64,000 bases of DNA from Candidatus Omnitrophota bacterium (GTDB lineage: Bacteria > Omnitrophota > Omnitrophia > Omnitrophales > Aquincolibacteriaceae): the NCBI GenBank assembly GCA_030698625.1, contig JAUYMS010000030.1, positions 84,016-148,015 of the forward strand. The letters run 5' to 3'. Within the stretch, counting starts at the first letter, position 1. Each line of letters begins with the position of its first letter. A program made the position numbers and the translations under genes. This document shows, piece after piece, positions 17,857-60,930 of the stretch. The notes below the pieces were generated by a model. That model saw only the letters and a program-made list of their open reading frames with translations, did no database searches and was not told the DNA's origin.

Positions 17857-18200
17857 CGCGCTGCGAGGTGAAAACAAGGCTGTCCGAAACGCTACGGATT
17901 TCTCGGCCTATCCTGCTCATCAAAGTCTTGCCGAAAACCGGTGACTTTGATATTCGCCGATACGGCCAGAGAAATTCTCCGCATGTTTCTGACAGCCTTG
18001 TTTTCACCTCGTTAGCCTGGGGCGCTTGAGGCAAAAGGAAGGACGGGCAGGGAATACTCCGGAAAAACAATTGGCGCTGTTTGCGGAGACGAGGTGATGA
18101 ATTTTTGGGGCGGTAGTCCCAAAAATTAACTCCGAGCGCAGCAGCGCGTTTTGGAGGAGTGTTTCCTGGCCGTTCTTCCTTGGTGTTTTGGGCCGAGTGC
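17857..18200. repeat. palindromic repeat element, copy 1 (A and B hairpins)
   Basis: A non-coding element filling most of the 512-bp gap before queF. Palindrome A spans 17864-18011: its outer 27 bp pair with one mismatch, a weaker middle follows, and ATCAAAGTC/GACTTTGAT closes the centre. Palindrome B spans 18038-18179 with arms around GGAAGGACGG and a centre AATTTTTGGGG / CCCAAAAATT. A degenerate A half-arm (18186-18200) follows and runs into the queF promoter. Related copies lie at 28866-29388 (opposite orientation) and 60324-60678. No transposase is present. Confidence 0.85.
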
Positions 18201-18215
18201 AGGGCATGATATAAT
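18188..18215 (+). promoter_or_regulatory. extended -10 promoter of queF, near-leaderless
   Basis: TGaTATAAT (18207-18215) is a perfect extended -10, with a weak TTGGGC (18188-18193) 16 bp upstream. The -10 ends 8 nt before ATG 18224, so transcription would begin about 2 nt before the start codon. No Shine-Dalgarno sequence fits. Confidence 0.6.
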
Positions 18216-28865: not shown

Positions 28866-29388
28866 ACCCGCTGATACGGCCAGGGAATACTCCTCCAAAA
28901 CGCGCTGCTGCTCGGAGTTAATTTTTGGGACTGTCGCCCCAAAAATTTATCACCTCGCCTCCGCAAACAGCGCTAATTGTTTTTCCGGAGTATTCCCTGC
29001 CCGCCCTTCGTTATGCGCCAGGCGCCCCAACAACCCGAGAGATAAAAACAAGTCTGTCAGAAACGCTCCGCAAGGACGGCCACTAAACACTCCTCCAAAA
29101 CGCGCTGCTGCGATCGGAGTTAATTTTTGGGACTGCCGCCCCCAAAATTTATCACCTCGTCTCCGCAAACAGCGCTAATTGTTTTTTCGGAGTATTCCCT
29201 GTCCGCCCTTCGTTATACTCCAAGTGCGCCAACGCCCGAGAGATGAAAGCAAGGCTGTCAGAAACATGCGGAGGATTTCTCTGGCCGTATCAGCAATTAT
29301 CAAAGTCACCGGTTTTCGGCAAGACTTTGATGGACAGGATATGCCAAGAAATCCGGAGCGTTTCGGACAGACTTGCTTTCAGCTCGCG
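28866..29388. repeat. palindromic repeat element, copy 2 (compound, inverted)
   Basis: Opposite orientation to copies 1 and 3 and more complex. An 18-bp fragment identical to the inside of palindrome A (28866-28883) runs into a B palindrome (28877-29010), then an A half-arm (29037-29066), a second B palindrome (29075-29212) and a complete A palindrome (29240-29385). In A the arms read GAAAGCAAG and CTTGCTTTC, where copy 1 has an A-T pair at the central G-C. The array fills the 573-bp gap between lptF/G and the convergent HAD gene. Confidence 0.85.
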
Positions 29389-60316: not shown

Positions 60317-60323
60317 CGGCGCG

Positions 60324-60678
60324 CGAGGCGAAAACCAGGCTGTCGGAAACGCTTCGGATTTCTTGGCCTATCCTGCCCATCAAAGTCTTGCTGAAAACCG
60401 GTGACTTTGATACCCGCTGATACGGCCAGAGAACTCCTCTGCATGTTTCTGACAGCCTGGTTTTCACCTCTCGGGCATGCGATGCTTGGGGCAAGAGACA
60501 GGACGGACAGGGAATACTCCGGAAAAACAATCAGCGCTTCTTGCGGAGACGAGGTGATAAATTTTTGGGGCGACAGTCCCAAAAATTAACTCCGAGCGCA
60601 GCAGCGCGTTTTGGAGGAGTGTTTCCTGGCCGTGCTTCGTTGGCGTTTCGGACCGACTTGTTTTCATCTCGCAGCGCG
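60324..60678. repeat. palindromic repeat element, copy 3 (most complete)
   Basis: Palindrome A at 60324-60471 and palindrome B at 60497-60640, followed by an A half-arm at 60645-60678 that is 31 of 34 identical, in inverted orientation, to the left end of copy 1 (17857-17890). The element therefore has inverted ends. Arms of A read AAAACCAGG and CCTGGTTTT where copy 1 has AAAACAAGG and CCTTGTTTT, a paired change. It starts 7 bp after the mauE-like stop. Confidence 0.87.
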
Positions 60679-60930
60679 TCCTAGTAGCTTCCTATACAAC
60701 ATGTCTTTAAGTCGAGACTTGACCCCTTGGTAGTTATGGTAGGTATTATAGGTATGTCTTGGTAAGTGGCGGATATATAGCGATTTATGGAGATCCTTGT
60801 TGCATTTTGAGGGGACCTATAGTAGTCTTTTATAAAGGATGTAGTTAGTTGTTAGGCGATATGAGTCCATGCTTAACAACACAAGATGGGGCGCAATTTA
60901 GTATTTCGTGAGTCTGCGAAGGAGCGACTG
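60679..60930 (+). promoter_or_regulatory. AT-rich leader with possible promoter before the dockerin-like gene
   Basis: A gene-free 250-bp stretch clearly richer in A and T than its surroundings, resembling the leader before flp. TTGAGG (60807-60812) and TATAAA (60831-60836) with 18 bp between could be a promoter. TTGACC at 60719 has no good partner. Short repeats of TGGTA and GGTAT occur at about 60730-60770. No reading frame of note. Confidence 0.35.

Follow-up and report, generated by a model that had tools for sequence, protein, structure and literature searches.

A Lineage-Specific Mosaic Family of Long Hairpin Repeats in the Genome of an Omnitrophota Bacterium

Copies of the Repeat and Their Modular Anatomy

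The window, the 64,000-nucleotide stretch of DNA analyzed here, contains three copies of a repeat built from two distinct imperfect palindromes, module A (approximately 149 nt, with arms a and a') and module B (approximately 147 nt, with arms b and b'). Half-arms of 23-35 nt derived from these modules, a from A and b from B, are also found alone at the borders of the elements. The modules of the three copies are located as follows:

17863..18011, + strand: copy 1, module A (arms a and a'), folding as one long hairpin
18035..18181, + strand: copy 1, module B (arms b and b')
18182..18203, + strand: copy 1, terminal half-arm a' shortened to a stub, followed by TATAAT and a QueF-like gene
29239..29387, - strand: copy 2, module A
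29072..29210, - strand: copy 2, first module B
29038..29071, - strand: copy 2, half-arm a' separating its B modules
28876..29010, - strand: copy 2, second module B (tandem a'-B unit)
60324..60470, + strand: copy 3, module A, which begins about 8 bases past the stop codon of a MauE-like gene
60499..60636, + strand: copy 3, module B
60643..60678, + strand: copy 3, terminal half-arm a' (the 34-bp inverted end, 31/34 to 17857-17890 inverted)

Across the genome, the commonest composite consists of A, a linker of 20-odd nt, B, and a'. A and B in this fixed order and with the conserved linker are present at about 11 loci, and A is found without B at seven. The fullest copies (L005, L010, and L011) have the structure a b [A] [B] a', with approximately 55-60 bp of a and b sequence inverted across the whole element. 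Other arrangements include copy 2, where the terminal a' runs on into the second B as a tandem a'-B duplication, and locus L017, where B lies inverted beside A. A third composite type is formed by A without B within CTCCGAATACCTCACGG / AGAGGTATTCGGAG arms together with a further hairpin; by eye, this additional inverted-arm set was observed at L018, L019, L022, and L023, and a search with one of its flanks detected related sequence at contig C43 only (C43:111281-111730 and C43:19352-19602).

Individual modules have also been remodeled. At L007:1498-1671 (- strand), the tip hairpin of B has been swapped for an unrelated perfect hairpin, CATGCACTTTC...GAAAGTGCATG, while the remainder of the module is little changed. 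One reverse-strand frame of A is stop-free in L022, L023, and L024 (RLSETCGG...MGRIGQEIRSVS...), so that reading can continue from the element into the gene downstream, possibly extending the N terminus of its product.

Distribution of the Family in the Host Genome and Its Relatives

The assembly holding the window, from an uncultured bacterium, comprises 3.52 Mb in 50 contigs and is 95% complete, and the closest relatives of its IlvD protein belong to Candidatus Omnitrophota (78%, 76%, 76%, and 73%). Searching this genome with a 344-base query recovered approximately 24 separate loci of the repeat family, and covariance models of A and B identified 20 A and 17 B modules, every one of them at these loci, with no decayed additional copies elsewhere in the genome. 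Five contigs (C8, C13, C28, C37, and C43) break inside copies, as expected for repeats in a short-read assembly. The ends of C8 and C37 lie in a near-identical stretch of B, and a missing gene could therefore hide at such contig joins.

The family was absent from 57 relatives, 26 of them of the same family, searched by BLAST and covariance model, and from 284 relatives examined by pattern search, and no related copies were detected in plasmids, viral contigs, or GTDB contigs. A single candidate in a genome of the same class, G047, matches 26 bp of the B core at 25/26 positions (L033:1142-1167); this match falls where a glycosyltransferase-like reading frame starts and is probably a coincidence. 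A search of the open literature turned up no account of palindromic repeats interspersed in Omnitrophota genomes. The dispersal of the copies among unrelated neighbors, together with their absence from the 57 relatives, argues for amplification within the lineage.

Every copy is intergenic, overlapping neighboring genes by at most about 14 bases according to simple gene calls, and the hairpin often starts less than 20 bases from a stop codon. Seven of the 11 A+B composites lie between convergent genes, compared with two of 19 gaps in the window (Fisher p = 0.004), a comparison in which the baseline of 19 gaps is small and manual correction was applied to the neighboring gene calls at L011, L022, L023, and L024. 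The copies survive mainly beside the 3' ends of genes.

The Inverted Ends as Instances of a Shared Arm

The original prediction described an end-inverted element of 340-355 bp, and the match on which it was founded was reproduced: in an ungapped comparison, the reverse complement of 60645-60678 in copy 3 equals 17857-17890 in copy 1 at 31 of 34 bases. Under BLAST against the whole 3.5-Mb genome the match is longer, covering 36 bp at 92% identity with E = 1.7e-7, and it is therefore not due to chance. The recurrence of this arm within palindrome A of copy 3, where it forms the inner right arm, was likewise recovered, as an inverted pair at 60319-60350 / 60445-60476 (88%), placing arm a at both the left and the right ends of the palindrome. 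The repeat also contains no gene, as had been stated.

The inverted ends of the proposed element thus stand, but its size with defined 34-bp ends does not, since the outer limits vary from copy to copy and A and B are separable. The terminal a' is present in about 10 of the 16 B modules in the genome with a readable right flank. Nor does the left end of A mark the outer boundary of the fullest copies, where an extra a and b lie further left; outer a or b arms are found on this side in a minority of copies. The approximately 55-60 bp of inverted a and b sequence at the ends of these copies indicates that the 34-bp "terminus" represents a single occurrence of a shared arm, used both inside and outside the element, and not a fixed transposon end.

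Folding and Covariation of the Hairpins

Modules A and B each fold as one long hairpin, with energies well below those of shuffled sequences (z = -11.9 for copy 1 and -9.1 for copy 3). Among the 47 pairs of A, eight had changed on both sides, compared with 3.6 after shuffling (22 cells versus 5.9), and among the 50 pairs of B the corresponding figures were six and 2.0 (8 cells versus 2.2); the covarying cells come in part from a few subfamilies whose related copies have changes in common, so that not all are independent events. Sliding the partners by 1-3 columns lowered pairing from 97% to less than 52%. The outer arm of A is complementary to its own partner at 12.7 of 14 positions and to the arms of other copies at 10.7, and none of 10,000 permutations was as good. 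Pairing is kept while the sequence changes.

These changes are unevenly distributed. Between copies, identity is 78% in the outer arms of A and 90-91% in its core, which comprises the inner part and the tip, while B has values of 86% in the outer arms, 95% in the inner part, and 88% in the tip. That the arms of A (78%) are less conserved than its core (90%) is the opposite of what sequence-specific recognition of terminal repeats would predict. The arms and their covariation are more readily explained by a hairpin that acts as a folded unit than by a transposase that recognizes a fixed sequence of 34 bp.

Covariation of this kind could also arise by mutation, if one arm were rewritten from the other by hairpin-templated correction, through template switching or the repair of a folded strand, with no selection acting on pairing. 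The perfect copy-specific outer arms of L004, L018, and L023 are consistent with such a process, as is the lack of strand bias in A described below. However, mismatches and bulges within A are constant and have been retained in all copies, and correction of this type would account for the covariation while leaving the dispersal of the family unexplained; we regard it as very unlikely to be the main explanation.

The one-sided departures from pairing bear on whether the hairpins function as RNA. On the written strand of B, G-U exceeds A-C in 20 versus 4 cells and in 12 versus 3 pairs (the latter with p = 0.035), which suggests, if weakly, that B could function as RNA in this orientation, whereas the same departures in A show no strand bias (9 G-U versus 15 A-C cells). 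Together with the position of the composites at convergent 3' ends, the lean in B would suit elements kept in transcribed 3' regions for termination or mRNA stability and mobile only in the distant past. Such an RNA-level role as the basis of the family is nevertheless improbable, given the absence of the bias in A, the absence of the family from all relatives tested, and the occurrence of copies in both orientations beside varied neighbors. There is also no corresponding Rfam family: the window yields a tRNA alone, and copy 1 has no match at E < 1.

Mobility, Partner Genes, and Target Sites

The lack of a visible target-site duplication, pointed out in the original prediction, agrees with the flanks of 16 copies, where the longest direct match averaged 4.31 nt between a copy's own flanks and 4.01 nt between mismatched flanks, a weak comparison since the ends are uncertain. 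The only gene pair tried as an empty site, the FIST-LeuC gap around L018, does not have a conserved gene order in relatives, and no empty site was observed.

A non-autonomous element moved by a transposase encoded elsewhere had been proposed. The first part of this proposal is borne out by dispersed, gene-free, end-inverted, non-autonomous repeats at approximately 24 loci; the second is not, as no transposase gene flanked by the 34-bp ends was found in the genome. Allowing up to three mismatches, the genome-wide arm search detected no gene bounded by a or b arms, the matches being confined to known copies apart from one with three mismatches, which is the rate observed for control patterns.

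The two Y1 transposase genes of the genome were considered as RAYT-like partners and rejected, neither of them being accompanied by a or b arms. One, at L031:1474-2460, encodes a C-terminal DnaA-like domain and is bounded by a 30-bp inverted repeat, GGGGTCAAGTCTCGACTTGA (L031:1376-1405 and 2435-2464), which differs from the a and b arms. This repeat has 13 exact copies in the genome, including one at 60698-60727 of the window, about 28 bases to the right of copy 3. The gene and its repeat constitute a separate system of the REP/TIR type, with no evidence that it moves A or B, and show that such systems are present in this genome. The family is probably mobile in trans, as its dispersal suggests.

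A reading of the repeat as a MITE is partly supported. Under this explanation, A and B would constitute one classical MITE, or else two separate MITE families that frequently move jointly, cut and pasted by a DDE transposase, located elsewhere or lost, that recognizes the inverted ends. The long inverted a and b ends of L005, L010, and L011 would be expected of such elements, as would non-coding, dispersed copies and the amplification of A+B as a unit; the contig ends inside copies, moreover, mean that some of the sequence around them is unassembled. Against this, no target-site duplication signal and no gene bounded by the arms were found, the ends differ from copy to copy, and the arms are less conserved than the core and covary within copies. 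We therefore consider the MITE explanation a possible but rather doubtful one.

Comparison with Known Repeat Systems

MITEs, as reviewed, have terminal inverted repeats, TA ends, and target-site duplications (PMC2229807). With RUP, Nezha, and Correia/NEMIS elements, the present family shares the absence of genes, inverted ends, and a strong hairpin, and its copies are non-coding, multiple, and dispersed; unlike them, it has no target-site duplication signal, no TA ends, no constant outer inverted repeats, and no autonomous IS with matching ends that could be found.

REPINs are inverted doublets that form hairpins with compensatory changes and are tied to RAYT genes (PMC3116915), and some Y1 genes are flanked by long terminal inverted repeats forming moderately abundant families (PMC3733652). 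As in REPIN/RAYT (TnpA-REP) systems, an inverted doublet here forms one long hairpin with compensatory arm changes, there is no target-site duplication signal, and movement in trans is proposed. However, REPINs combine conserved ends with a variable spacer, whereas a conserved core is combined with variable arms in this family; no RAYT is linked to the arms, and the Y1 gene of the genome itself has a different end sequence.

REPs adjoin the 3' ends of convergent and unidirectional genes (PMC3733652). BIMEs, the mosaics of REP or PU units, resemble the present repeats in their inverted arms in alternating orientation, solo arms, and intergenic location near gene 3' ends. They differ in unit length, with REPs of 20-40 nt instead of hairpins of approximately 150 nt with conserved cores, and in number, with hundreds of copies compared with about 24 loci; no GTAG or CGTC tag was recognized here by eye. 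A modular build and an excess between convergent genes characterize BOX elements (PMC3049150), and those of Streptococcus pneumoniae are, like this family, composite, hairpin-forming, and dispersed, with no proven transposase. Their module lengths and order are unrelated, and no tandem array resembling boxB occurs here except for the single a'-B duplication of copy 2.

The family thus shares most with BIME, REPIN, and BOX repeats, from which it differs by its long hairpins, conserved core, and covarying arms, and its resemblance to known mosaic palindromic repeats is closer than that to a simple mobile element bounded by 34-base ends.

Proposed Nature of the Family and Its Significance

The explanation we favor, with a probability of roughly 0.55, is a species-restricted, non-autonomous family of the BIME/BOX/REPIN type, made of composite palindromes, in which the folded hairpin rather than a 34-bp terminal sequence is maintained. 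Its working units would be the hairpins A and B (approximately 150 nt each) and the half-arms derived from them, joined as mosaics such as a-b-A-B-a'. The copies probably spread in trans to intergenic sites in the past, perhaps through an enzyme that acted on the single-stranded hairpin, as has been proposed for HUH/Y1 transposases with REPs, and the mosaics could have arisen by recombination between shared arms or by insertion into them. Counting against this explanation are Y1 genes without a or b arms, a modest copy number, and conservation of the core instead of the ends seen in REPINs. A more novel reading is a mobile hairpin of another kind, moved by an enzyme that has so far not been linked with repeats of this sort, in which the conserved core and not the ends would be recognized, the arms would be free to change if they pair, and mosaics would form via the shared arms; this we consider unlikely.

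The repeats represent a real, lineage-specific family of mosaic hairpins, and they serve as a warning that inverted ends alone are insufficient for calling an element a MITE. With a single genome supplying 20 A and 17 B hairpins that covary, the family provides convenient material for examining whether recognition of a mobile repeat depends on its structure or on the sequence of its ends.
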